A stretch of DNA of 64,000 bases from an uncultured Granulosicoccaceae bacterium (GTDB lineage: Bacteria; Pseudomonadota; Gammaproteobacteria; Granulosicoccales; Granulosicoccaceae). A program made the position numbers and the translations under genes. This document shows positions 15,093 through 45,672 of the stretch, in pieces. Within the stretch, counting starts at the first letter, position 1; every line of letters starts with the position of its first letter. The stretch covers positions 1-64,000 of the forward strand of contig CALAJN010000003.1 in the NCBI GenBank assembly GCA_937922675.1, given 5' to 3'. The notes below the pieces were generated by a model. The model was not told where the DNA came from, did not search any database, and saw only the letters and a program-made list of their open reading frames with translations.

Positions 15093-15431
15093 TCAGAGCG
15101 CTGTGGGGCCGGACTCGTTGGTGCGGATACGAACGGCCCGCTCCATGTCGGTGACAAAGATCTTTCCGTCGCCGATCTTCCCGGAACCTGCTGCCGTCGT
15201 GATTGCGTCAATGACAGAGTCGAGCTGTCCGTCGTCCACACCAATCTCGAGCTTGGTCTTCGGAATGAAGTCGACAACGTATTCAGCGCCGCGATACAGC
15301 TCGGTGTGCCCCTTTTGGCGGCCAAAGCCCTTGACTTCAGTGACGGTCATGCCCTGGACGCCGATTTGCGAGAGCGCTTCTCGTACTTCGTCGAGCTTGA
15401 ACGGCTTGATAATCGCCGTGACTAGCTTCAT
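15093..15431 (-). CDS. glnK: Nitrogen regulatory protein P-II (GlnK)
   Basis: The 112-residue product is a canonical P-II signal protein: [16 protein letters not shown] at the start, the T-loop with the uridylylation tyrosine at position 51 ([12 protein letters not shown]) and the C-terminal GDGKIFV segment. It senses ATP/ADP and 2-oxoglutarate and controls AmtB and, probably, nitrogen regulation. The ATG at 15431 is chosen over an upstream one at 15488 because it gives the standard N-terminus and because the sigma-54 promoter lies between them. Confidence 0.95.
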
Positions 15432-15472
15432 GCGGAGTTCTCCTGTGATGAAAGCATGGTGAGGAGAGCCGC

Positions 15473-15487
15473 GCACTATTGGTGCCA
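15473..15487 (-). promoter_or_regulatory. Sigma-54 promoter for glnK-amtB
   Basis: Read on the minus strand the site is TGGCACCAATAGTGC. The -24 element TGGCAC is perfect, and GG and GC are 10 bp apart as required; the -12 element is TGC without the preceding T. Transcription would start about 30 bases ahead of the glnK ATG. Candidate activator half-sites TGCACCA (15550-15556) and TGGTGCG (15591-15597) lie upstream and resemble NtrC site halves, but they are 34 bp apart and unproven. Confidence 0.65.
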
Positions 15488-15674
15488 CGTCATTAATGGC
15501 AATAAAAACAACGTCTTGAGTCGAAGCGAGACATTGTCAGGCCGCAATTTGCACCATACGGGGGCGCTTGCGTCCCTGTATGCGAGCTATTGGTGCGTGT
15601 TTGGCGTCAGATGCGTCTGCAGCGCTGTGCCGTTATGCTTTGGGGCTCAACTAAACGCTGCCTGAGCAGAAACC

Positions 15675-15926
15675 ATGCTTGACGCTACTGTGTTTGACGA
15701 CCTCTCACGACGACTCGGCGCGCTCTTGCCGCCAGGGCTTGCTGATGCCAAGGCAGACTTTGAGCGCAACGCCCGGTCTGCTGTACAGAGTGCCCTTGGC
15801 AATCTGGATCTGGTAACGCGTGAAGAGTTTGATGTCCAGACCGCCGTGCTGGCGCGGACCCGCGCTCGGATGGAGGCACTGGAGGAACGCCTGGCTGTTC
15901 TCGAGCGAGACGCCGGCGCAGGGTAG
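15675..15926 (+). CDS. ubiK: Ubiquinone biosynthesis accessory factor UbiK (BMFP family)
   Basis: This 83-residue protein matches the UbiK/YqiC family: an amphipathic N-terminal helix with LPPGLADAKADFERNARSAV, the linker LDLVTREEFDVQTAVLARTR and a C-terminal trimeric coiled coil (MEALEERLAVLE). In E. coli it helps the Ubi enzyme complex at the membrane in aerobic ubiquinone synthesis. It is divergent from glnK with a 243-bp gap between the two starts. Confidence 0.9.
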   Translation: MLDATVFDDLSRRLGALLPPGLADAKADFERNARSAVQSALGNLDLVTREEFDVQTAVLARTRARMEALEERLAVLERDAGAG

Positions 15927-16053
15927 TCACCTGCTCCAGCCCTCTGCACTGCCTGGCTCATCTGTCCGGCTCCTCTGTGCTGCGTACTGTCTCATTTGCG
16001 ACAGGGTGTGTTCGGCGCTACCGGTATACGTGAACTCGTTCCTGCGCTGCTTT

Positions 16054-16082
16054 TTGACCTGTGGCAGAAGCTGGTACATTAA
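16054..16082 (+). promoter_or_regulatory. Candidate sigma-70 promoter for the TauABC-like operon
   Basis: TTGACC at 16054-16059 and CATTAA at 16077-16082 are separated by 17 bp, about 85 bp ahead of the binding-protein start. The match is fair and unconfirmed. The rest of the 15927-16166 gap shows nothing else I can name. Confidence 0.35.
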
Positions 16083-16166
16083 GCCGGGCAAGGCGGGCGA
16101 GTAGCCCGTCGTAAGTGAGCGTCAGCGATATCCACTGACGCCACCCTTATCCTTGGAGAATTGTGG

Positions 16167-17168
16167 ATGATCGTTAGAAACAAGCTGGTTTGCGCCATGG
16201 CAGGTGTGGCGATGATGGCTGGAGCTCAGGCTGTCAGCGCGGATGACCACGCGCTCAACGTGGGTTACTTCCTCGAGTGGCCAATGCCGTTCCAGGCGGC
16301 CAAGGTCGCCGGAACCTACGACGAGGCGCTCGGAGCGCCTGTCAATTGGGTTGCCTTTGACACCGGGACTGCCATGTCTGCTGCCATGGCCTCGGGCGAT
16401 ATCGATCTGTCGGTATCTCAAGGTGTACCTCCTTTCGTTGTTGCCACATCGGCAGGTCAGGATCTGCAGATCGTTGATGTCGCGGTTTCTTATTCTGAAA
16501 ACGACAACTGTGTGGTTCGTGCGGACCTCGAGATCGACAAGGACTCAGCCGGTGAGCTTGCCGGCAAGAAGGTCGCTGTACCGCTCGGTACAGCAGCGCA
16601 CTACGGTTTTCTCAAGCAGATGAGCCACTTTGGCGTCGCTGTGGACAGCCTGACCGTTGTCGACATGGCGCCCGCTGAGGGCCAGGCAGCGCTTGCACAA
16701 GGCGCGGTTGACATGGCTTGTGGTTGGGGCGGTGCCCTGCGCCGTATGGTTGAGTCCGGCAACGTGCTGCTGACAGGTGCAGAGAAGGAAGAGCTGGGTA
16801 TTCTGGTGTTTGACGTCACATCGGGCCCGTCGTCGTTTATCGCTGAAAACCCTGACGTGGTTTCCAAGTTCCTTGCGGTAACAGCCGCTGCCAACGAAGA
16901 GTGGAACGCCTCTCAGCCTGCAGAGATGTTGGCAGCGATCGCCACCGACGCTGGTATGTCCGAGGAAGACACAGCATCAACCATGTCTACCTTCATCTTC
17001 CCGGGCGTGGATGATCAGATGTCAGAGAAGTGGCTCGGTGGCGGTGCGCAAGAGTTCATGAAAGGTGTGGCAGACGTGTTTGTCGAGGCTGGTTCTATCG
17101 GTGCTTCAAAAGACAGCTACGAAGACAATGTCAATGTTGGTCCTCTGAAAGCTGTCGGCAGCATGTAA
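16167..17168 (+). CDS. ABC transporter substrate-binding protein, taurine/nitrate/sulfonate family
   Basis: The 333-residue product has a Sec signal peptide ending near residue 25 (AQAVSA then DDHA). Its body resembles TauA: LNVGYFLEW, WVAFDTGTAMSAAMASGDIDLS and GQAALAQGAVDMACGWGGAL. It is presumably periplasmic and feeds the ATPase and permease encoded next. The substrate may be taurine or another small organic anion; no taurine dioxygenase or Tpa/Xsc gene is nearby, so I leave it open. ATG 16167 has GGAGAA upstream; a TTG at 16161 is less likely. A strong terminator-like hairpin follows, which would keep this gene more highly expressed than its partners. Confidence 0.85.
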   Translation: MIVRNKLVCAMAGVAMMAGAQAVSADDHALNVGYFLEWPMPFQAAKVAGTYDEALGAPVNWVAFDTGTAMSAAMASGDIDLSVSQGVPPFVVATSAGQDLQIVDVAVSYSENDNCVVRADLEIDKDSAGELAGKKVAVPLGTAAHYGFLKQMSHFGVAVDSLTVVDMAPAEGQAALAQGAVDMACGWGGALRRMVESGNVLLTGAEKEELGILVFDVTSGPSSFIAENPDVVSKFLAVTAAANEEWNASQPAEMLAAIATDAGMSEEDTASTMSTFIFPGVDDQMSEKWLGGGAQEFMKGVADVFVEAGSIGASKDSYEDNVNVGPLKAVGSM

Positions 17169-36040: not shown

Positions 36041-37060
36041 GTGAATGAGAGTATCAGTAGCATCGACGGAATAGGCGCAGCGCTTGATCATCGGCTCGAC
36101 CACGTGCCCAGTGAGGTACCGTTTGCGCCGGTAAGCAGTGTGTTCCAGTTTTTCGGCGGGGGTGGCCGTGCGTTGATTCTTCAAGGCATCAGCAGTGCCC
36201 TTGAGAATGACGAGGCGTGTGTGCACGTCAGTGGTGAGCGAGGAAGTGGCAAGACCATGCTGGCGGCGGTGGTTGCCGAGCGGACATCGCACTCACACCA
36301 GATCATTCGGTTTGATGCTGACGAGCTAAGTGCTGCTGCCTTGCTGCATCAATTGGTCATCGAGTTGTGTCCGGGCGAGCTACCACAACCGAGATCGGTT
36401 GGTCGCAAGGACATTTCGGGTGCCAATTTGCAGGCAGACCCACTGATAAACTCGATCGACCATTCACTTGCCGCAGTACTTGAACAGCTTGCAAATGGCA
36501 CGGCTGCTCAACGTCCCGTGTTGTTGTTGATTGATTCTGCGAGTGTGTTGCGCCCAACTGTCAGGCGTTTGCTTGAGCAGATGAGCGAAGTTCGTCATCG
36601 CGGGCAACGCATGCTTCAATGTGTAGTGTTCGAGCGAGTAGAGCACGACTCAAAGGCAGCGTCAGACGTGCAACTCTACAGCGACGGCTCGTTACACCAT
36701 CATCGGCTAAGACGTTTGACGCTTGCAGAAATCGGTCAATATCTGGAGCATCAAATGCTGTTGCTCGACTTCAACAAGCGTGATGTGTTCACACGTGAGA
36801 TGGTGTATTTCATCGCTGATCGTTCGGCGGGTGTCATTGGGTCTGTCAAGTCGATCGCCCGTAATGCTTTCACCATCGCAAGGCTCGAGAAATCAGACCG
36901 GCCAAGCCTGTCTCACTTGTTGGTAGCAGAGCTGCCTCAACGTGAAGATCCTGTACCCAAGCGTGGTTTTATCGCTCGTCACCGCAAGGTAGTGTTTGCT
37001 TTGTTGGGGTCGAGTGTTGTAGCCTCAACGGCAACGGTGGTGTTGTTGTCAGTGCGTTAG
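36041..37060 (+). CDS. ExeA/MshM-like AAA ATPase of a pilus or secretion locus
   Basis: The 339-residue protein has Walker A GERGSGKT at 65-72 and a Walker B-like VLLLIDSA. The ExeA/MshM pattern of a FFGGGGR segment precedes the ATP site, and a C-terminal membrane helix is at about 315-337 with a short end outside. MshM and ExeA help assemble or place the secretin. The Walker B here ends in D-S rather than D-E, so ATP hydrolysis may be weakened. It is the first gene of the locus. The annotated start is a GTG. Confidence 0.75.
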   Translation: MNESISSIDGIGAALDHRLDHVPSEVPFAPVSSVFQFFGGGGRALILQGISSALENDEACVHVSGERGSGKTMLAAVVAERTSHSHQIIRFDADELSAAALLHQLVIELCPGELPQPRSVGRKDISGANLQADPLINSIDHSLAAVLEQLANGTAAQRPVLLLIDSASVLRPTVRRLLEQMSEVRHRGQRMLQCVVFERVEHDSKAASDVQLYSDGSLHHHRLRRLTLAEIGQYLEHQMLLLDFNKRDVFTREMVYFIADRSAGVIGSVKSIARNAFTIARLEKSDRPSLSHLLVAELPQREDPVPKRGFIARHRKVVFALLGSSVVASTATVVLLSVR

Positions 37061-37145
37061 GCGCATCACGCTCGTTGTTTTAGAGGGCAAGAGGCTCTCT
37101 TGAGACCACACCCGAGTATGATCGGGTTCAAGGACATGGATTGTC

Positions 37146-38906
37146 ATGAGATTGATCGCTGCAGGGCTGCAGTCGTCCCGTCACCGGTATTGTTGTCAGT
37201 ACAGGGCGCGCGTTTCGAGAACGCGGTCAGGCTTCTGTAGTCCTCTAACCTGCCTTTGCACCAGGCTGAGCGTTGTCGTGTGCGCGGGTTTGCTTGCAGC
37301 TTGTCAAACAGCCTCGTCGCCACCGTCTACTGCTGGCTCAGAGCAGGACGGTATGGCCGTCTCGCAAGACGAGGCTGATTCCAGCACTCTCGCACCGACA
37401 CAACCGAATGTTGCAATAGAGCCCGATCAATTGGCGCCGCAACCTTCGCCGCCGTCCTTACCCCGGCAAGAGCTTAAACCAGACGCATCACTCCATCGTG
37501 TCAGCGTCGACGCCGCTCGCGTGTCGCTCTCTTCCTTGTTGTTTCTGCTCGCTCAAGAGGCGCAACTTGATCTGTTGCTGCTTTCATCACTGGATCAGCC
37601 GGTCACCTATCGTGCAACTGACTTGCCGCTGCGTGACGTGCTGGACGTACTGGCTCAACAAGTAGCGTTTGACTGGCGCATAGAGGGGAGTTCCTTGCGA
37701 ATAAGGGATGGGTCTCTGTTTACTGAAAGCTATGCAGTCGACTATCTCGATATGGACCGCAGCACTCAAAGCCGAGTCGGTCTGGCAACGCGGGTGGGGA
37801 CGTTGAGCTCTACCGACGTCTCCTCGCCTTCATCGCCAAGCGTAGCCAATGGATCAGAAACCCTGATCGAGAACGAAAGCAGTCATCGCTTCTGGGAATC
37901 GTTGGCAGACGATGTTGAGGGTCTGTTGCAATCGGATCGCAACCACGGATCTGTGTCAGCGCACTTCTCGCTGAATCGTGAGGCGGGGCTGCTAACGGTG
38001 CATGCGGGGCCGCGTGCACATGCAAGCGTGCGGCGCTACCTCGAACATGTGCAGGAAAGCGTTGGCAGGCAGGTATTGATCGAAGCCAGCGTGGTCGAGA
38101 TCACCTTGTCTGATAGCTATGAGACAGGCATAGACTGGCAGTTGCTGGCTAATGGGATCAATGGGGTCAGTGCAGCTCAGGTGCTCGGCGGGATACCTGC
38201 TGTCAACGCCGCAACGGTTACGCGCTTAGGTGCGCCAGCTGCACTGGTGAGTGTGGTGCAGCAAACTGATGTCGGGGATGTGACTGCGACCTTGTCGCTA
38301 CTCGAGGAGTTTGGAGATGTGCGCATCCTGTCGCGTCCGCGCATCATTGCACTGAACAATCAGGCCTCGGTACTCAAGGTGGTGGATAACCGCGTCTATT
38401 TCACGGTAAACATTGAGCGGCGCTCTGGTGAGGATAGTGACGAGATCCGCACCGAGTCGGAGATTCATACCGTACCCGTGGGTCTGGTGATGAACGTGAC
38501 ACCGCAGATTGGTCATGATGATCAAGTCATGTTGAATGTGCGCCCTACCTTGTCGCGTATTCTCGGCTTTGTTGATGATCCGAATCCGGAGCTTGCTGTT
38601 GCGGATGTGCGCAACAGTGTCCCTGAGATTCAGGTGCGTGAGCTCGAGTCCATGCTGAGTGTGCAGAGTGGCAAGGTAGCGATCATCGGGGGGTTGATGC
38701 AAAACGCCAGTCGTGCACGCGAAAGAGGTGTTGCCGGGCTCGCTGGCTTGCCTTTCATCGGTCCCTTGTTCTCACAGCGCACTCGAGAGCAGCAGCGCAG
38801 TGAGTTGTTGATCGTGTTGCGTCCAACGGTACTGCGCCGCAAAGAGACAACAGCCAATCTCACAGCAAATGCTGACATGAGTGCGGGCGGAGTGTCGGCA
38901 AAGTGA
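37146..38906 (+). CDS. Secretin, MshL/PilQ/GspD superfamily, lipoprotein
   Basis: The 586-residue protein has a lipobox LLAAC with the cysteine at about 53. A Pro/Ser/Gln-rich linker and an N0/STN-like domain (about 125-185) follow. From about 300 come an N-domain with VGRQVLIEASVVEITLSD and the secretin channel domain (ILSRPRIIALNNQASVLKV, VPEIQVRELESMLSVQSGKV and GLPFIGPLFSQ). It should form the outer-membrane ring. Its architecture is nearest to MshL. The long, Arg- and Cys-rich N-region before the signal suggests the true start could be a few codons later. The stop overlaps the next gene. Confidence 0.87.
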   Translation: MRLIAAGLQSSRHRYCCQYRARVSRTRSGFCSPLTCLCTRLSVVVCAGLLAACQTASSPPSTAGSEQDGMAVSQDEADSSTLAPTQPNVAIEPDQLAPQPSPPSLPRQELKPDASLHRVSVDAARVSLSSLLFLLAQEAQLDLLLLSSLDQPVTYRATDLPLRDVLDVLAQQVAFDWRIEGSSLRIRDGSLFTESYAVDYLDMDRSTQSRVGLATRVGTLSSTDVSSPSSPSVANGSETLIENESSHRFWESLADDVEGLLQSDRNHGSVSAHFSLNREAGLLTVHAGPRAHASVRRYLEHVQESVGRQVLIEASVVEITLSDSYETGIDWQLLANGINGVSAAQVLGGIPAVNAATVTRLGAPAALVSVVQQTDVGDVTATLSLLEEFGDVRILSRPRIIALNNQASVLKVVDNRVYFTVNIERRSGEDSDEIRTESEIHTVPVGLVMNVTPQIGHDDQVMLNVRPTLSRILGFVDDPNPELAVADVRNSVPEIQVRELESMLSVQSGKVAIIGGLMQNASRARERGVAGLAGLPFIGPLFSQRTREQQRSELLIVLRPTVLRRKETTANLTANADMSAGGVSAK

Positions 38907-40384
38907 GGGGTGGCGCCGTAAACCAGACACAGGGGGCAGGCCAGCTACTCGCTACTCCTGAGGCTTGGGTGGTAGACCCGGTGGCTGTTGCCATGGTCGA
39001 TGCAGGGCTCGCCTGTCAGCATGCAGTACTCCCCTTGGGGTTTGATACCAGAACGAGGCAGCTGCACCTGGCTTTGACCCGCCCCCAGGATCGTCTCAGG
39101 CGCGAAGCCCTGTGTTCCGGCTTGAAGGTCGAATGCGAGCTCGTCTGGCATGCCGCCACCGAAGCCGTTGTGCAGGAAGGTTTGTATCGCTGCTATGGCC
39201 ACTCGACAGGATCAGTGCAAGGGGTCGCCTTCAGGCATGGGCAGACTCAAGCTCCTGATGATGAAGATACCTATATCGTTCAATTGGTGGACAGCCTGCT
39301 TCATCAAGCTGTCGCCGCTGGCGCATCGGATGTGCACATCACACCGCAGTGTGGCGAGCTTTGTATACGCATTCGTCGTGATGGGCACATGGAGTCTCTC
39401 GCAAGCGTTGATGCGCAATGGGCTGATTCACTTGCCATACGTTTGAAGGTCATGGCGAACCTTGATGTGGCCGAGACCCGGCGTCCACAAGATGGACGGT
39501 TCGAGCGACTTGTTTGTGCTCGCCGGGTTGACTTGAGACTGTCGAGCTTCCCGATCATGTACGGAGAAAACATCGTCATTCGTCTGCATGATCATGAGCG
39601 CTGCCCCGCCAATCTTGCATCGCTAGGCCTTGATTCGGCAACCGTGGACGAGTTTCAGGTCTTGTTGGAGGCGCCGCCAGGTTTGACCGTGGTGTGTGGT
39701 CCCACAGGATCGGGCAAGACGACCACGCTATATGCGCTTCTGGATGCGCTGGACGATGGCACTCGTTCATTGATGACACTTGAAGATCCTGTCGAGTATC
39801 CGCTGCCAGGCATTGTGCAGGCCTCGGTAGACCCCTCTCGTGCGATTGATTTTGCAAGCGGTGCCCGCGCCTTGCTCCGGCAGGATCCGGATGTGCTCAT
39901 GCTCGGAGAAATTCGCGACCAGGCAAGTTGCCGCGTGGCTGTCAGAGCAGCGCTCTCTGGCGTTCGTGTGCTTGCGACCTTGCACGCCTCGGATAGCTGC
40001 ATCGCCATAGAACGTTTATTTGAGCTTGGGGCAACAGCGGGAGAACTGGCCGCAACTCTGACTGGCGTGATAGCGCAACGCTTGTTGCGTTTGCAAGATG
40101 GGACCGGTCGGCGAGCCGTGTTCGAGGTCCTGACCGGTAGCTCTGAAGTGCGAGCAGGCATTGTTGAAGGACTCACGCCGGCGCAGATGTCTGCTATCGC
40201 GTTTCCCGAAACGATGCGGCTCTGGCAGCAGGCGGCCGAATCCGCACTTGGCGGCAGAATCGACAACAGCGAAGTCAAACGCGTGCTCGGCGTAGTGCCG
40301 GGACAGTCTGTCGATGATTCAACAACAACCAGGAGATGCAAGGATGCGCTCTACGCCAAGCGTGCTGCCATTGGCAGACCATGA
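38903..40384 (+). CDS. GspE/PilB/MshE-type assembly ATPase lacking the zinc segment
   Basis: The 493-residue protein has Walker A GPTGSGKT (266-273), the aspartate box MTLEDPVEY, Walker B-like VLMLGEIRD (331-339) and the histidine box LATLHASDS (358-366). An N-terminal MshEN/T2SSE_N-like domain covers about 20-110. In most GspE, PilB and MshE proteins a segment with two CxxC pairs follows the QRLxR motif. Here QRLLRLQDGTGRRAVFEVL runs straight through, so that segment is absent. The enzyme should power pilus or pseudopilus growth. It begins at GTG 38903, overlapping the secretin stop. Confidence 0.85.
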   Translation: MRGGAVNQTQGAGQLLATPEAWVVDPVAVAMVDAGLACQHAVLPLGFDTRTRQLHLALTRPQDRLRREALCSGLKVECELVWHAATEAVVQEGLYRCYGHSTGSVQGVAFRHGQTQAPDDEDTYIVQLVDSLLHQAVAAGASDVHITPQCGELCIRIRRDGHMESLASVDAQWADSLAIRLKVMANLDVAETRRPQDGRFERLVCARRVDLRLSSFPIMYGENIVIRLHDHERCPANLASLGLDSATVDEFQVLLEAPPGLTVVCGPTGSGKTTTLYALLDALDDGTRSLMTLEDPVEYPLPGIVQASVDPSRAIDFASGARALLRQDPDVLMLGEIRDQASCRVAVRAALSGVRVLATLHASDSCIAIERLFELGATAGELAATLTGVIAQRLLRLQDGTGRRAVFEVLTGSSEVRAGIVEGLTPAQMSAIAFPETMRLWQQAAESALGGRIDNSEVKRVLGVVPGQSVDDSTTTRRCKDALYAKRAAIGRP

Positions 40385-41423
40385 ACGTACGATCAAACTG
40401 CTTGTTCGCCCGCTATCGGATACGGATCTGGCGCTCGCCTTTAGATATCTCTCGGTATTGCTTGATGGGGGGTTATCGCTTGTCGGTGCGCTGGCAGATA
40501 TAGCGCGTATTGATCCACGCGCGCGCCTCCACCAGCGTTGGTCGGCAGTCGCTAGCCAGGTGGAACAAGGGCACTCTCTGTCATCAGCGGTACAGATCCT
40601 CGGTCTGACGCGCCACTCAGACGTGATCGCCACTTTGGCTGCTGCCGAGATTGATGGATCACTTGCGCAGGCTTGCTCTGCATTGGAGAGAAGTTTGCGT
40701 GCCCGGGCAGAGCATCGACGTCGTCTGCGTATGGCGCTGATCTACCCGGCGTTTGCCGGGGTCAGCCTGATCTTCGCCAGTGGGTTCCTGTTGCTGAGAG
40801 TTGTGCCGACGTTAACCACGATCGCTCCCGGTGAACAGACTCTTCCGGCACATGCGATACCGCTGTTGTGGCTTTCCGAGGTCTTGCAAGGCGGCTCCAT
40901 GGTGCATGTGCTCTTACCGCTTCTGTTAGCGACATCGGTGGCTGTGCTGTTGAGGCGGTGGTTTCCAGTGTTCGGCACGGGTAACCCCTTTGAGCTTGCC
41001 GCCTACTCACGCATTGTGTGTCGCCTGCGAATTCACGGCTCCACCCTTGTCGATGCCATGCGGGTTGCTGAGGATGTCATCAGCTCATCACGTTTGCGGG
41101 CGGAGCTGGTGCAAGCGCGGTACAGCGTGGTCGTTGGTCGCCGGTTGGCGCAGAGTCTTTCTGCGGCCCGACATATACCCCCCCTGGTGGTAAGCCTGGT
41201 ATCCGTTGGCGAGAACTCGGGGTCATTGGATGCATCGCTCGAGCGGGCGGCTCAGGTGCTCGAGGACGACGCCCGACATCGACTGGAACGCATGGAACTC
41301 ATCGCTCCGCATATCATGCTGGCAGTGGTAGGGGGCTTGCTTCTCTGGATCGTGGTGTCGATCGTGTTGCCCCTCTACGACAGAGCCCTGACCGGCGGTC
41401 TGGCAGGAGCAATGGGCACATGA
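40344..41423 (+). CDS. GspF/PilC/MshG-type inner-membrane platform protein
   Basis: The 359-residue protein has the duplicated T2SSF architecture: a first cytoplasmic domain (FRYLSVLLDGGLSLVGAL), two membrane helices near residues 135-160 and 185-205, a second cytoplasmic domain and a last helix near 315-340 (ending VLPLYDRALTG). It is the platform that couples the ATPase to the pilin rod. ATG 40344 is used because AGGAG lies nine bases ahead; it therefore starts inside the 3' end of the ATPase gene, a 41-bp overlap. Confidence 0.85.
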   Translation: MRSTPSVLPLADHERTIKLLVRPLSDTDLALAFRYLSVLLDGGLSLVGALADIARIDPRARLHQRWSAVASQVEQGHSLSSAVQILGLTRHSDVIATLAAAEIDGSLAQACSALERSLRARAEHRRRLRMALIYPAFAGVSLIFASGFLLLRVVPTLTTIAPGEQTLPAHAIPLLWLSEVLQGGSMVHVLLPLLLATSVAVLLRRWFPVFGTGNPFELAAYSRIVCRLRIHGSTLVDAMRVAEDVISSSRLRAELVQARYSVVVGRRLAQSLSAARHIPPLVVSLVSVGENSGSLDASLERAAQVLEDDARHRLERMELIAPHIMLAVVGGLLLWIVVSIVLPLYDRALTGGLAGAMGT

Positions 41424-43078
41424 CCAGTCAGCGAACGTGCGTCTGGCTATCGTCCGAACAGGTTGTCTGGAGTCTCTGGTCGAACGAGACACTCGTGGAC
41501 TGTGTTGTGGTTTGTGTTGATGAGCGAGCGCGCTGTCCATGGGATGTGCGTGGGGCTGTCAGGATGGTCGTAGACGCCGGTCATGAAGATGTCGAGCGGA
41601 TTGCATCGACAGGTTTTGGGTCCGATGTGATCGGCAGGTGGCAGCGCCTGTTGTTTGCACATCGTCGCCGACTTGCAATCGCACGGGGCCGCGATTTGGA
41701 GCAGGCGGCAGAAAGTGCGACGGAGCCAGGTCCGCCTCTCAGCCAGCAGGCCTTGACACCTGCCTGGCCGTTGAGCTGGTTATCGCGCAATGGATCAGAA
41801 ACCGCTCGTGGTGCCAGTGTGATCGAGTGTTGGTCGGATCCCATACACGCCTGGCTTCGAGCTGCTCTACACAACGGTCTTGTGGTTGCCGAGGTCTATT
41901 CGGCAGCTCGTTTACTGGCGCGTTGTGCCACGAGTGATTCAACGCCGCAGCTCCTGGTGTTTGATGTGGCCGGTGTCTCCCGTCATCTGGTTTGCGCCGA
42001 TGGAGTGGTATGCCTTACACGGACAGTTGCCGAGAATGAGGATCAGCTCGAGGCGGTAGCTGCAGCTATAGAGCACGTTGCCGAACGTTGGGGCTTTCAC
42101 AGATTGAATGTCAGCCTGCCATTCAACACGCAAATCTGGACACCGAACGTTGTTGCAAACGTGCAAACACTTTGCAAGGGCATGGCCAGCGTGCGCAGCG
42201 CTGTGCCAATTGATGTGCCAGCGTATCGCGCTGACACGCCCGTGCTCGATAGCCTGATCTTCGAGACTCTCAAGGCACTCAACACGCGTCATACGTCTAT
42301 TCGTTTCTCTGGCGCGATCAGCCACGTGGCCCAGGCTCGCGCTGCCAGTGAGCCGCGGCGTGCACACAGGACTCAGCTCGGACTCAGGTGCGCCATGATC
42401 GCCCTGGCGCTCCTGGCGTTGTCCTCTGCCAGCTACGCTGTCGCTGTTGGCGTTGCACATGCGCGTCTTGCAGCGGCTTCAATCCATGAGCGTGAATCCG
42501 TGTTCTCTGATGCCAGGCAAACGTGGCAAAGAGCATCTGACCTCACTATGGATCCGGTCCGTGCTACACGTCGCGTGCAAAGAGCGATCGAGTTGAACCG
42601 ATCCCAGCCCGCATCGCCCAACGATGTGCTGGTTCTGGTGGCCACTCATATCGACAGGCATCCGCACCTGTTGTTGCACCAGCTCGAATGGCGATCTCTT
42701 GCCGACGATGACAGTCAATTCGAGCAGGTTTTGGTAAGCGATGGTCCAGTACATGTTATGGAATCCCCTTGGCAAGCATCCTTGCTTGCCGAGTTTCCGG
42801 AGGCGAGTCCCGTACTTACGCTTGTGGAACTTGCCGGTGTGACGCAAGGCATACAAGCTGTGACAGAAGCTCAGAAAGCAGCTGACAGTCTGCAGCAGTC
42901 CTTGCAGGCTGTAACTCGCGTACGGTCGTGCAACATGCTTTTATCCCCCTTGATGATGGCTGCAGAGGGTCCAGAGCATCAATTGAATGAGAGCCCCCTT
43001 CCATGGCGAATGCGGTGCATTCTCAATGCGCCCGAGGTGCGCTCAGGTGCAGTAGACGACGGTGCTCAAAGGCCATGA
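41420..43078 (+). CDS. GspL-like assembly protein (PilM-type and PilN-type parts fused)
   Basis: The 552-residue protein has a cytoplasmic N-terminal region to about 315, one membrane helix at about 320-340 (MIALALLALSSASYAVAVGVA), then a periplasmic helical and alpha/beta region. This is the layout of GspL or MshI plus PilN: an actin-like cytoplasmic domain, a helix, and a ferredoxin-like periplasmic domain. Sequence similarity is low, so the call rests on topology and on its position between the platform gene and a PilO/GspM-like gene. ATGA overlaps occur at both ends. Confidence 0.6.
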   Translation: MTSQRTCVWLSSEQVVWSLWSNETLVDCVVVCVDERARCPWDVRGAVRMVVDAGHEDVERIASTGFGSDVIGRWQRLLFAHRRRLAIARGRDLEQAAESATEPGPPLSQQALTPAWPLSWLSRNGSETARGASVIECWSDPIHAWLRAALHNGLVVAEVYSAARLLARCATSDSTPQLLVFDVAGVSRHLVCADGVVCLTRTVAENEDQLEAVAAAIEHVAERWGFHRLNVSLPFNTQIWTPNVVANVQTLCKGMASVRSAVPIDVPAYRADTPVLDSLIFETLKALNTRHTSIRFSGAISHVAQARAASEPRRAHRTQLGLRCAMIALALLALSSASYAVAVGVAHARLAAASIHERESVFSDARQTWQRASDLTMDPVRATRRVQRAIELNRSQPASPNDVLVLVATHIDRHPHLLLHQLEWRSLADDDSQFEQVLVSDGPVHVMESPWQASLLAEFPEASPVLTLVELAGVTQGIQAVTEAQKAADSLQQSLQAVTRVRSCNMLLSPLMMAAEGPEHQLNESPLPWRMRCILNAPEVRSGAVDDGAQRP

Positions 43079-43653
43079 GCAATCCGCGTGTTGATCAGCT
43101 TAAACGGCGGGCATGTACAGCGCTTGTGTGCGCGCTACTGGTGGTATCGGCGTCTCTTGCCTCGATCTATCGGATGCAGCATGCAAGCGAGCGACTACAG
43201 CAACAGATGCGGGAGGCGCGTGTGGAGCTTCAGCGTTCATCTGAGGCGCTCCTGTGGTTGCAAAAGACTCGCGCACAGCAGCCTGCCTTGTCGCTTGAAG
43301 CTGATGAGCTTGCAACGATGCTCATTGATGCCTTGTCGCTGCTTTCAGCTGAAGATGGGGTTCTGGATTGGAAATTTGAGCAGACCAATGCCGATACCTA
43401 TCGGGTTCGAGCCTCATCCACGTTGTTGGATGTACGGACGCTGACGCTTGTTGTCGATGTAAACGTCAAGCACGGCCCTCACTTGCTGACCGTGCTGGAT
43501 CAATTGCGATCGATAGCTCTGCACCGCCCGGTTCAGGTAAGAAGCTGTCGTATCGAGCGTGTGCCCTCGGCCAGCAGGCTGTCTTCAACATCGTTCAATT
43601 GGCCACTGGCGGGCCGATGCGAGCTGGACTGGCCATGGTGGGCGGAAGTGTGA
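43075..43653 (+). CDS. PilO/GspM/MshJ-like assembly protein
   Basis: The 192-residue product has a short cytoplasmic N-terminus, one membrane helix (ALVCALLVVSASLASIY, about 15-32), a coiled coil and a small alpha/beta periplasmic domain. This is the plan of PilO, GspM and MshJ. The start ATG 43075 overlaps the preceding stop. The call is by topology and gene order. It likely pairs with the GspL-like protein in the inner-membrane ring. Confidence 0.6.
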   Translation: MSNPRVDQLKRRACTALVCALLVVSASLASIYRMQHASERLQQQMREARVELQRSSEALLWLQKTRAQQPALSLEADELATMLIDALSLLSAEDGVLDWKFEQTNADTYRVRASSTLLDVRTLTLVVDVNVKHGPHLLTVLDQLRSIALHRPVQVRSCRIERVPSASRLSSTSFNWPLAGRCELDWPWWAEV

Positions 43654-43964
43654 GCAAGACGTGTCGTGTGCCCATACTGCTTTTGGGGGTGGGCTTGCTT
43701 GTAGCCACTGTAGAGGCCAACTCTGAAGAAGGCGTGGTCGCACCATTGGAACAGCTGCGTCTGTTTCTTTCACCTGAGGAACGTGATGCATCAGCGTCAT
43801 CGGCTCATACGGAGGAGGTATTGCAGCCGCGCGGGCCCGCTGTTGAGAGGCCGGAAGCCGAGCTGCAAGAGGTTGAGCGGCAGCCGGCTGGCTATGCCGT
43901 CGTACAGGGCTCAGGCGGTGTGCACACCATTGTTGATGATGTGCCTCAGTCAAGTATCCGATGA
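43650..43964 (+). CDS. Small PilP/GspC/MshK-like periplasmic protein
   Basis: From GTG 43650 (GTGA overlap with the preceding stop) the product is 104 residues with a signal or anchor helix (VPILLLGVGLLVATVEA) and a Pro/Glu-rich linker. It ends with YAVVQGSGGVHTIVDDV, reminiscent of the short HR-like domain of PilP, MshK or GspC, which contacts the secretin. Similarity is weak; position and size support the call. Confidence 0.5.
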   Translation: MSKTCRVPILLLGVGLLVATVEANSEEGVVAPLEQLRLFLSPEERDASASSAHTEEVLQPRGPAVERPEAELQEVERQPAGYAVVQGSGGVHTIVDDVPQSSIR

Positions 43965-44926
43965 AGAGTCTTGCGCTGAGTCCAGGTGATTTGCAACAGC
44001 AGCGTTCAGCTGCGCGTCGGGCATCGGGTTTTGTTGCCTTGAGCATGTTGCTGATGCTGGTTTTTTGTGCAGCTGCATGGATGCATGTTCCGGATGCATT
44101 GCTCTTGAGCCGTGAAGACAGCAGGGCAGATCGAGCACTTCACAACATCAAACGTAGCGCAAGAGTCGTTGATGCACTGGCAGCACACTCGGTCATGTAC
44201 CACGATCACTACGGTCCGTCCGGAGCCGGACCTGGGCATGTGCCTTGCCCGGATACCGATGCACACATCGATCTGCCACCAGAACGTCGGGCACTGTCTC
44301 GTGCCGGACCCAATCCGCCATGCGCAAGCAGGCCTGAAGTGCACGGCGTGACACCGGCCCATATCAGCGTCGCAACGCTTCGAGCTGGTGTGGACGTCGA
44401 GGCTGGCGTGGGCTATCCCTTGTCGTATGCCGTTCTGTCAGATGTGGTCAACAATCCGACAGGGCGTATTGTGAATACAGAGCTGCTATCACAGGCCACA
44501 ACATTGGCCCGGATTGGGGTTGCCAGGCAGTCTGCGCACGTCGCCTCCCAAAGGCCTTTGTTGCCATTACCGCTGCGCTCTCATGTTGTGCACGCTCCAG
44601 TGAAGCGCCGTGTCACATCGTGGTTGATCAATCAGCTGGCAAGCTCGACGTTGCTGCCGAGTTCGGGTTGTCATCCGCCAACAGGCTGTGAGCTTTCAGC
44701 GCTCTATCCCCTGAAGAAAGCTCTGGTAGAAGGCGTGACAGCGGAGCGCCATTGGTTCTGGCGCAACCAGTGGGACCTTGGGTACTGGCTCATGGTGGAT
44801 GCGATCTGTGCGGACAGTTCGGCCTCCTGCCGATGGCACGTCGATCCTGCTGGGGTCGCGACCGTTGATGAACAGCCGGGCACGACACCTGTGTTGTTGA
44901 CCCTGCAGGACGTATCGGTGTTGTGA
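43961..44926 (+). CDS. Minor pilin-like protein, GspK/PilX type, without Glu5
   Basis: The 321-residue protein has a basic leader and then a prepilin-like segment, SGFVALSMLLMLVFCAAAW (about 22-40). If it is cut after the glycine, the mature residue 5 is Ser, not Glu, as in GspK-type tip pseudopilins that also lack Glu5. The large C-terminal domain contains GHVPCPDTD, a motif with a parallel (EFPCP) in the next gene. Large size with missing Glu5 suggests a tip subunit. It overlaps the neighbours on both sides by four bases. Confidence 0.6.
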   Translation: MKSLALSPGDLQQQRSAARRASGFVALSMLLMLVFCAAAWMHVPDALLLSREDSRADRALHNIKRSARVVDALAAHSVMYHDHYGPSGAGPGHVPCPDTDAHIDLPPERRALSRAGPNPPCASRPEVHGVTPAHISVATLRAGVDVEAGVGYPLSYAVLSDVVNNPTGRIVNTELLSQATTLARIGVARQSAHVASQRPLLPLPLRSHVVHAPVKRRVTSWLINQLASSTLLPSSGCHPPTGCELSALYPLKKALVEGVTAERHWFWRNQWDLGYWLMVDAICADSSASCRWHVDPAGVATVDEQPGTTPVLLTLQDVSVL

Positions 44927-45672
44927 GCAGCCAATCCAACACTGCGCTCAAGTGGCGATCAGGCGGGTTCAGTCTGGTGGAAATTGCGATTGTGCTGGTT
45001 GTACTCGGCGTTCTTGCCCAAGCCACGCTTATCCCTTTATCAGCACTGAATGAAACGAGAAAGGAGCGTCAGCTTGCACATGAGCTTGAGTTGATCCGTG
45101 ATGCACTGATCGCCCACCTGATCAGTTACGGTGAGTTCCCGTGCCCTCTGGCACGCTCTCGGGCACACACTGGCCGAGGTCTGCTTTATCGACCCGAGTC
45201 GGGTTCATGTCACCTTCGCGGATGGGTTCCAACTGCAAGCATGGCGCTGGACATTGCCAGCGATGCTGGCGGTGCTGCTCTGGACCCCTGGGGTAGGCCC
45301 TATGTCTATGGCCTCAGCGATGCGGATAACGCTGCAAGAGGCGCGCAAGGCAGGGCTGACTGGAGCTCGGCTGCAGAAATCTCGGCGGTCGGTATTGCTG
45401 ATCTGCGAGGTACGCTGACCATTTGCCGGGATAACAGCGACCCGTGCAATGCCACTGCCGTCAGTGCAAATGATCTGGTCTTTGTGGTGTTGTCACATGG
45501 TTCTGATGCGTCCGCAAGTGACCTTCAGTCCCTGAATACACGGGATAGTGGTGATGTCTTTACCCTTGCACCTCGCTCTGCCGTAGACGGCCACCGATTC
45601 GATGATGCGCTGGTGTGGGCTTCACGCAGCGAGGCCGTATGGTGGCTTTTGCGGGCGCATCGACTACCTTGA
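44923..45672 (+). CDS. Prepilin-type pseudopilin with GFSLVE motif
   Basis: The 249-residue protein has a canonical class III leader: a basic region then GFSLVEIAIVLVVLGVLAQA at about residues 15-34, with the cut expected after Gly and Glu at mature position 5. The globular part contains YGEFPCP and DPWGRPYVYG, the latter resembling the DPWG calcium-site region of GspG-type major pseudopilins, although this protein is about 100 residues longer. No prepilin peptidase is encoded in the window. It starts at GTG 44923 and is the last gene of the locus. Confidence 0.78.
   Translation: MSSQSNTALKWRSGGFSLVEIAIVLVVLGVLAQATLIPLSALNETRKERQLAHELELIRDALIAHLISYGEFPCPLARSRAHTGRGLLYRPESGSCHLRGWVPTASMALDIASDAGGAALDPWGRPYVYGLSDADNAARGAQGRADWSSAAEISAVGIADLRGTLTICRDNSDPCNATAVSANDLVFVVLSHGSDASASDLQSLNTRDSGDVFTLAPRSAVDGHRFDDALVWASRSEAVWWLLRAHRLP

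Follow-up and report, generated by a model that had tools for sequence, protein, structure and literature searches.

A reduced nine-gene secretin and pilin locus of an uncultured Granulosicoccaceae bacterium and its relation to the MSHA pilus

Positions 1 to 64,000 of contig CALAJN010000003.1 (assembly GCA_937922675.1), from an uncultured Granulosicoccaceae bacterium, were analysed and are referred to as the window. At 36041-45672 the window carries nine compactly arranged genes (g1 to g9) that include a secretin, an assembly ATPase and pilin-like proteins, and the question raised by this locus is which kind of machine they encode. A sequence-only reading had described a cluster of mixed MSHA (mannose-sensitive haemagglutinin pilus) and type II character, either a reduced pilus or a dedicated secretion system. 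Here we summarize the evidence that the locus lies in a secretin clade sister to the MSHA loci of canonical order, that it is reduced, and that a further pilin, probably the major one, is encoded on another contig. The cluster is best read as a cyclic di-GMP (c-di-GMP)-independent pilus of this sister family, with a probability of about 0.65. Throughout this paper genomes, contigs and loci are numbered with G, C and L; the window genome is G000, and the window lies on its contig C3.

Layout and parts of the locus

All nine open reading frames (ORFs) are intact, lie on the plus strand and were found open over their whole length in a check of the window. Six of the eight junctions (g2/g3, g4/g5, g5/g6, g6/g7, g7/g8, g8/g9) overlap by four bases, as the compact description of the cluster had it; g1 and g2 are separated by 85 bases, and g3 and g4 overlap by 71 bases, or by 41 if g4 starts at the next ATG. 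Five of the nine proteins could be named with Pfam and NCBIfam profiles, namely the AAA protein, the secretin, the T2SSE ATPase, the T2SSF platform and the prepilin; T2SSE and T2SSF scored well over their cut-offs. Profile searches thus placed only part of the set: g5, g6, g7 and g8 had no Pfam or NCBIfam match above cut-off, and a PHROGs search gave weak matches only. The features are as follows (all on the plus strand):

36041..37060, +, g1: AAA ATPase with a transmembrane-like segment at its end (AAA_16 42.4 bits, AAA_22 27.8)
37146..38906, +, g2: outer-membrane secretin, MshL-like, with Cys53 (Secretin 122.7 bits)
38903..40384, +, g3: MshE/GspE-type assembly ATPase (T2SSE 294.1 bits, positions 3-284 of 370 only)
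40314..41423, +, g4: inner-membrane platform of the GspF/MshG/PilC family (T2SSF 127.0 bits; GspF 142.0, cut-off 424)
41420..43078, +, g5: actin-like cytoplasmic domain, long membrane helix and periplasmic part, GspL-like (AlphaFold2 model, Foldseek)
43075..43653, +, g6: protein with a single transmembrane segment in the PilO/GspM position (position, iterative profile)
43650..43964, +, g7: short PilP/GspC/MshK-position protein of the periplasm with a reduced C-terminal half (family alignment)
43961..44926, +, g8: pilin-like protein that lacks Glu5 and has a GspK/PilX-like N terminus; its globular domain carries a PCPD motif (alignment)
44923..45672, +, g9: prepilin with a GFSLVE processing site, Glu5 kept, PCP motif (IV_pilin_GFxxxE 19.8 bits, alignment)

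The best NCBIfam model for g2 was MshL (TIGR02519), with 244.5 bits for the whole protein and 246.8 in the genome search against a cut-off of 250.2, which is exceeded by the relatives G031 (270.3 bits) and L061 (261). The scores with the GspD model (136.2, cut-off 351.35) and the PilQ model (119.5, cut-off 284.35) were far lower, and Cys53 is invariant across 10 relatives. From its position and domain g1 is presumably MshM/ExeA-like; its AAA domain is in the expected place, and MshM was not matched in the profile libraries used. The XrtA-system AAA model TIGR03015 gave 23.2 bits for g1 versus 192.5 for L061, and g1 has 339 residues (aa) versus 455 and 510 in the distant relatives L062 and L061. 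The prepilin g9 passed the IV_pilin_GFxxxE cut-off (16.3) and scored below those of N_methyl (19.3 bits, cut-off 21.2) and of the GspG model (28.5, cut-off 88.85).

Two kinds of MshL loci and the reduction in Granulosicoccaceae

The MshL model was searched in 185 genomes of the class, 76 of which had a match above cut-off. Forty loci were picked from this list, mostly near its top together with second loci of the same genomes, so that the sample is not random. Judged by their gene order, 12 of them were of the window type, here called type B, 27 had the canonical order and one was of a third kind (L208); genes of about 320, 205, 225 and 115 aa precede the secretin in 13 of 18 canonical loci checked. 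At E 1e-3 all 12 type B loci were matched by the g5 and g6 profiles and 11 by the g7 profile, and none of the 28 others was matched by any of the three. The g8 profile matched all 12 and three others, namely L194, whose stretch holds a type B tail, L208 (50.5 bits) and L195 (16.4 bits). The g9 profile matched 20 of the 28 others, with at most 30.6 bits apart from L194 and L208.

Since the loci had been labelled by gene order, a tree is an independent test of the two kinds. In a secretin tree of 65 tips, type B (36 tips) was recovered with a support of 0.999 and the canonical loci (27 tips) with 0.812, and the two together were separated from GspD and PilQ of the host genome with 0.999. The window locus is in a secretin clade that is sister to the canonical-order msh loci. 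The order had been said to differ from the msh and gsp orders, and this tree, which sets the canonical-order MSHA loci apart, agrees with that; the members of the cluster were not all placed in ordinary MSHA or type II secretion system (T2SS) loci of a described order. In an ATPase tree both kinds were together (1.0) relative to the host GspE, PilB and C3 ATPase, and the canonical loci formed a group of 22 tips (0.998). At least nine genomes hold both kinds (G046, G115, G121, G126, G136, G168, G175, G189, G191). In G115 a type B locus is followed in tandem by a canonical-order MSHA locus (L193/L194, G115:C1:77200-110000). The locus of the third kind, L208 (G196:C7:68300-88200), has several g9-like pilins and AAA, F and E genes in another order.

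The survey of gene order, which the sequence-only reading had proposed, revealed the same order elsewhere in the family and, together with a tetratricopeptide repeat (TPR) gene, in many Gamma- and Betaproteobacteria, so that the set is not peculiar to the window genome: the g5 profile was positive in 38 of the 185 genomes (E 1e-10). This number is likely a lower bound, because among relatives the profile misses G027, G028, G031 and G043, where g9 was found. Outside the family the usual order is AAA, secretin, TPR, E, F, g5, g6, g7, g8 and g9, and a third pilin often comes next. Within the family, 20 loci were fetched around the secretin (L043-L059, L070-L072), and the window order was kept in 18 of them as far as the stretches run; in L057 and L059 the secretin stood without other machine genes in the stretch. 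The gene trmL adjoins all 20 of these loci, and secB is seen in 17 and tatD in 5 (names given by eye); g9 was present in 29 of 36 family genomes. With iterative profiles g5 was found in 70 and g6 in 65 of 104 loci, the window and three same-species repeats included; the iterative g8 and g9 profiles cross-matched, and profiles from curated alignments were used for the locus counts thereafter.

Several observations concern the neighbours of type B secretins. In some family members, namely G029 (L057 and L158), G033 (L059), L081 and L085, SIS-CBS, ABC2-transporter and SLBB/Poly_export genes are neighbours of the secretin, which is accompanied by a TPR gene in L057; Pfam was run on L057 only, and L059, L081 and L085 were assigned by similar gene lengths. 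Re-use of the secretin for glycan export (L057, L059) was considered and, in G029, rejected: its E, F, g5, g6, g8, g9 and pilin genes are together on another contig beside an NtrC-like gene, which indicates the same operon split at a different point. The secretin of G030 and G033 may serve something else, because neither g9 nor the third pilin was found in these two genomes. Several type B loci from outside the family have a gene of about 480 aa before the cluster and an antisense gene of 560-590 aa after it; in L061 these flanking genes (15111-16550, 359-2098) encode a sigma-54-type response regulator and a HATPase (kinase-like) protein, by which two-component control is suggested. L146 (CAMCQE010000024.1), a record titled as a Klebsiella pneumoniae metagenome-assembled genome (MAG), also carries a type B locus and is probably mislabelled.

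The locus of the window is reduced: the TPR gene, the c-di-GMP-binding motifs and the four-cysteine module have been lost. It was reported that the motor ATPase of the Vibrio cholerae MSHA pilus carries two RLGxx.. c-di-GMP motifs (Wang et al., 2016; PMC5013675). Both are missing from g3, which retains Walker A, Walker B (GEIRD) and the His box in alignments and begins after the motif region, of which other family members, for example L056, L058 and L070, keep a degenerate copy. From Wang et al. (2016) a relaxed 24-residue pattern was taken and sought in the first 140 residues; it was found in 0 of 19 Granulosicoccaceae ATPases versus 48 of 53 at other loci (Fisher p 4e-13, ancestry ignored). 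The module CxxC-x(25-32)-CxxC is present in 49 of the 53 ATPases outside the family; in the family a four-Cys pattern is found in 14 of 19, its pairs being only 6 residues apart in 10 of these, and none is found by this pattern in five (L043, L054, L058, L072 and the window). ATPase ORFs without Walker A or with fewer than 100 residues before it were left out of these counts, as were L073, L074 and L077, which are of the same species as L047, L048 and L052. The TPR gene is gone from between secretin and ATPase at the window locus. The spacing of these two genes is at most 109 bases in 22 of 24 family loci (exceptions L058, 685, and L096, 1614; L079 and L096 were grouped with the family by their Granulosicoccaceae titles) and at least 536 bases in 51 of 52 non-family loci (exception L137, with an ATPase ORF of 1084 aa). 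A relocated MshN was not found in a single search with the G029 TPR protein at E 0.01, a weak search with no positive control.

The proteins between platform and pilins were studied by modelling and profile comparison. The AlphaFold2 model of g5, built from 36 sequences (mean predicted local distance difference test, pLDDT, 72.7; predicted template modelling score 0.51), has an EpsL-like cytoplasmic domain, then a long helix, then an alpha/beta part. Its best Foldseek match was cyto-EpsL (1yf5, E 4.4e-9), to which 227 residues were aligned by VIA-align with a Z score of 15.2 and a root-mean-square deviation of 3.3. The g5 profile matched the MshI-position protein of canonical-order loci in hhalign (93.5%, E 2.2e-7; control 5.4%) and the PilN-position protein through the membrane helix only (57.5%). 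Based on this fold and these profile matches, g5 looks like PilM and PilN in a single chain, as in GspL. Since g5 has a GspL/PilM-like fold, the description of a mixed MSHA and type II character, for which the MshL-like secretin and the AAA protein also speak, was a fair one. The C-terminal domain of g7 matched the MshK-position proteins (87.0%; controls 4.2% and 0.2%) and is cut short in the window protein; g6 gave 6.5% with the MshJ-position proteins and had no clear match to the PilN-position profile. Profile searches of the PDB with g5 and g6 returned chance-like hits only.

Pilins of the locus and the unlinked third pilin

The two pilin-type proteins of the locus are paralogous across the globular domain (hhalign 99.7%, E 6.5e-27), Glu5 being absent in g8 and present in g9. 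No PDB match was found for g8 by profile search, Foldseek or VIA-align; its AlphaFold2 model has a long N-terminal helix, and no new fold is claimed because the model is only moderate (pLDDT 74.7). In lacking Glu5 it is a K-like pilin, similar to GspK. PDB searches with g9 and with the pilin described below matched pilin N termini. The sole N_methyl match on contig C3 is g9; there are 20 such matches in the genome, 19 of them above cut-off. When the third pilin of the G031 cluster was used as query, a protein of 53% identity was found in the window genome on contig C10 (E 2.3e-74):

G000:C10:210986-211759: unlinked third pilin, named by its similarity to the pilin directly after g9 in G031

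In G031, G034 and G029 this pilin has g9 on one side and an NtrC-like gene on the other. The copy of the window genome is apart from the cluster, near an NtrC-like gene (one ORF between) and with asnS on the other side. Among 29 short pilin stretches of relatives, the NtrC-like gene was present in 15 and asnS in 23, both named by similarity to the copies of the window genome, which were themselves named by eye. Since the pilin of relatives is flanked by g9 and the NtrC-like gene, the operon appears to have been split between g9 and the pilin in the window genome, and in G029 between the secretin/TPR genes and the rest. Outside the family, g9 was present in 48 type B loci; the pilin family was found within the stretch in 24 of them and at most 250 bases after g9 in 16; nine of these 16 also fed the pilin profile, and many of the 48 stretches end soon after g9. 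With canonical-order loci the pilin profile scored at most 24.9 bits, except in L194, whose stretch holds the type B tail. Across 57 genomes, both g9 and the pilin were present in 32, neither in 20, the pilin only in five and g9 only in none, an agreement of 52/57 (Fisher p 4e-11, shared ancestry ignored). Therefore the claim of only two pilins holds for the locus itself and fails for the machine, because the pilin that follows g9 in relatives is encoded here on another contig. The low pilin count was also considered as a proof of a pseudopilus; it was rejected as such in view of the unlinked pilin and its co-occurrence with g9. That the locus is reduced is right by way of losses that had not been named, those of the TPR gene, the c-di-GMP motif and the four-Cys module. 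The unlinked pilin is also the most conserved part of the set, with 90% identity to G003 versus 36-71% for the nine locus genes.

The host genome (3.63 Mb, 20 contigs) contains four secretins and nine T2SSE-type ATPases. A T2SS core and a PilMNOPQ locus on C10 and a run of pilins, PilB, PilC and PilD on C9 were recognised by eye from sequence starts and positions, and a Tad-like secretin/ATPase pair on C8 by position only. With T2SS-, type IVa pilus- and Tad-like loci elsewhere in the genome, the nine-gene locus represents a distinct machine. Neither a prepilin peptidase nor a PilT was seen within it, in line with the sequence-only reading; the single prepilin peptidase (Peptidase_A24) match of the genome is at C9:252906, and two PilT/U-like ATPases were recognised by eye on C10 (C10:31083, 32235). 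Two further PilB/GspE-type ATPase genes, of 599 and 644 aa, are at L063:4395-6194 (G000:C3:64394-66193, just beyond the window end) and L066:8375-10309, and no other pilus genes were recognised by eye near them. In L069:7858-12565 (G000:C14) an ORF for a PilT-like ATPase of 488 aa adjoins a 1064-aa ORF with the segment FVLDYSGSMN, a presumably vWFA/PilY1-like motif.

Proposed mechanism, alternatives and comparison with known systems

The cluster is accordingly proposed to encode a c-di-GMP-independent pilus of the type B family, which would share the genome's prepilin peptidase and perhaps PilT/U, and for which surface or host attachment is the probable role. The C9 peptidase (PilD) would mature g9, probably g8, and the unlinked pilin as the likely major subunit. 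ATPase g3, acting on platform g4, would push the subunits out through secretin g2, the assembly of which may be helped by g1, with g5 (cytoplasmic actin-like domain and periplasmic arm), g6 and g7 aligning and coupling subunit export. The paralogous g8 and g9 may form a two-pilin initiation or tip complex that primes the filament. Because g3 lost both 24-residue motifs, assembly by the motor would no longer be gated by c-di-GMP, unlike in the V. cholerae MSHA pilus. As reported in PMC9815625, that pilus needs PilT for extension and retraction; therefore the PilT/U-like ATPases of the host may act here too, and retraction, if any, would be by way of them.

Several points weigh against this proposal. 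The five genomes with the pilin and no detected g9 are G001, G004, G006, G007 and G009; G006 and G009, at 97% and 92% completeness, are not badly incomplete; a close secretin match is likewise missing in G004, G007 and G009. The locus of G006 hits a contig end, and G001 retains g5. Conservation of the pilin (90% to G003) far exceeds that of g5 (36%), g6 (37%) and g8 (44%) of the machine, so that a slow-evolving pilin could mean service to another machine too. Support for type B was only 0.395 in the ATPase tree, in which the Granulosicoccaceae are not monophyletic, and the fold match of g5 is tied with FtsA and PilM and so is unable to tell GspL from either. The canonical order is presumably that of the Vibrio msh locus. 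G031 is above the MshL cut-off and would therefore be called MSHA by the curators' models; Denise et al. (2019) may count such loci within their MSH class (PMC6668835).

Among the alternatives, a dedicated secretion system, in which g8 and g9 form a short T2SS-like pseudopilus that pumps one or a few substrates through g2 and the unlinked pilin is part of a different machine, for example the type IVa pilus, is the weaker reading and is considered unlikely. It would account for the two pilin-type genes of the locus, a g8 without Glu5 as in GspK, the GspL-like fused g5, the lost c-di-GMP input and a pilin that is out of step with the machine in its conservation and its presence in five genomes. 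However, the same pilin family is inside the locus of relatives, directly after g9, and the pilin tracks g9 and not other secretins, since G030 and G033, which have neither, keep further secretins; the host already has a T2SS-like locus, and no effector-like gene was noticed beside the nine genes in the window. An ordinary MSHA pilus that is merely rearranged is improbable. In its favour, MshL is the best secretin model, g5 and g7 show distant homology to the proteins of the MshI and MshK positions, and the MSH definition of Denise et al. (2019; PMC6668835) permits a loner mshA; on the other side stand the clade of its own in the secretin tree, the restriction of the g5, g6 and g7 profiles to type B loci, the genomes with both kinds, once in tandem, and a fused g5 versus two separate genes. 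Least probable is a functionless, decaying MSHA-type remnant. Fast evolution of g5-g8, the shortened g1 and g7 and the losses described above would fit decay, but the nine frames are intact and mostly overlapping, the catalytic motifs of g3 are kept, g9 is retained in most family genomes, and the proportion of non-synonymous differences is below that of synonymous ones in all nine genes and the pilin (pN < pS, 0.08-0.63), with synonymous sites near or at saturation.

The c-di-GMP-independent pilus is hence preferred. A broader proposal is put forward tentatively, at slightly worse than even odds: type B would be a separate, undescribed type IV filament family that is sister to MSHA and has a component set of its own (fused g5, g6, g7, the g8/g9 pair with PCP domains and a distinct major pilin), present in about one fifth of the sampled genomes of the class, often beside a canonical MSHA locus, and in the Granulosicoccaceae a c-di-GMP-independent attachment pilus of algal epiphytes. 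No account of the type B gene order was found in the open-access papers to which the literature search was confined; a published set of eight MAGs, in the part available, has type IV pilus genes in 8/8 and does not set this system apart there. With model-based annotation these genes end up divided between MSHA and type II secretion, and four of the nine receive no name. Recognition of the gene set turns them into a testable filament family in many genomes, provides a case in which the motor ATPase has lost, throughout a bacterial family, a c-di-GMP switch that the same system keeps elsewhere, and gives Granulosicoccus, which lives on kelp surfaces, a candidate organelle of attachment.

Compared with known systems, the locus shares with T2SS the GspE/GspF-type motor and platform and a g5 whose fold resembles that of GspL and equally those of PilM and FtsA; it differs in its GspD score (136.2 of 351.35), in having two pilin-type genes versus GspG, H, I, J and K, and in that a separate T2SS-like locus is present in the host. 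The type IVa pilus shares the logic of an alignment complex (PilM/N/O/P), an ATPase, a platform and a secretin. In contrast to it, the locus has a PilQ score of 119.5 of 284.35 and actin-like and periplasmic parts in one ORF instead of separate PilM and PilN, and other host loci look like pilMNOPQ and pilA-B-C-D. The Tad pilus also has a secretin plus ATPase, and the pair that resembles it lies separately on C8 (position only). With MSHA the locus has in common the MshL-like secretin, the AAA protein, a motor and platform probably of MshE/MshG type, the distant homology of g5 and g7 to MshI- and MshK-position proteins, a peptidase outside the locus, the single one being on C9, and, in most type B members outside the family, a TPR protein. 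It is unlike MSHA in its order, AAA-secretin-(TPR)-E-F-g5-g6-g7-g8-g9, which does not match the V. cholerae order (I-J-K before L; pilins and O-Q after G), in the PilM/PilN-like parts fused in g5 and in the paralogous g8/g9 pair; the window locus is also without TPR gene and c-di-GMP motif, and its pilin is unlinked. According to Denise et al. (2019; PMC6668835), mshA, E, G, L and M are mandatory in the MSH model and mshA may be a loner, the absence of a prepilin peptidase is normal for MSH loci, and TadD is reported as a homologue of MshN. Taken together, type B resembles a relative of MSHA that is widespread and has been little described.

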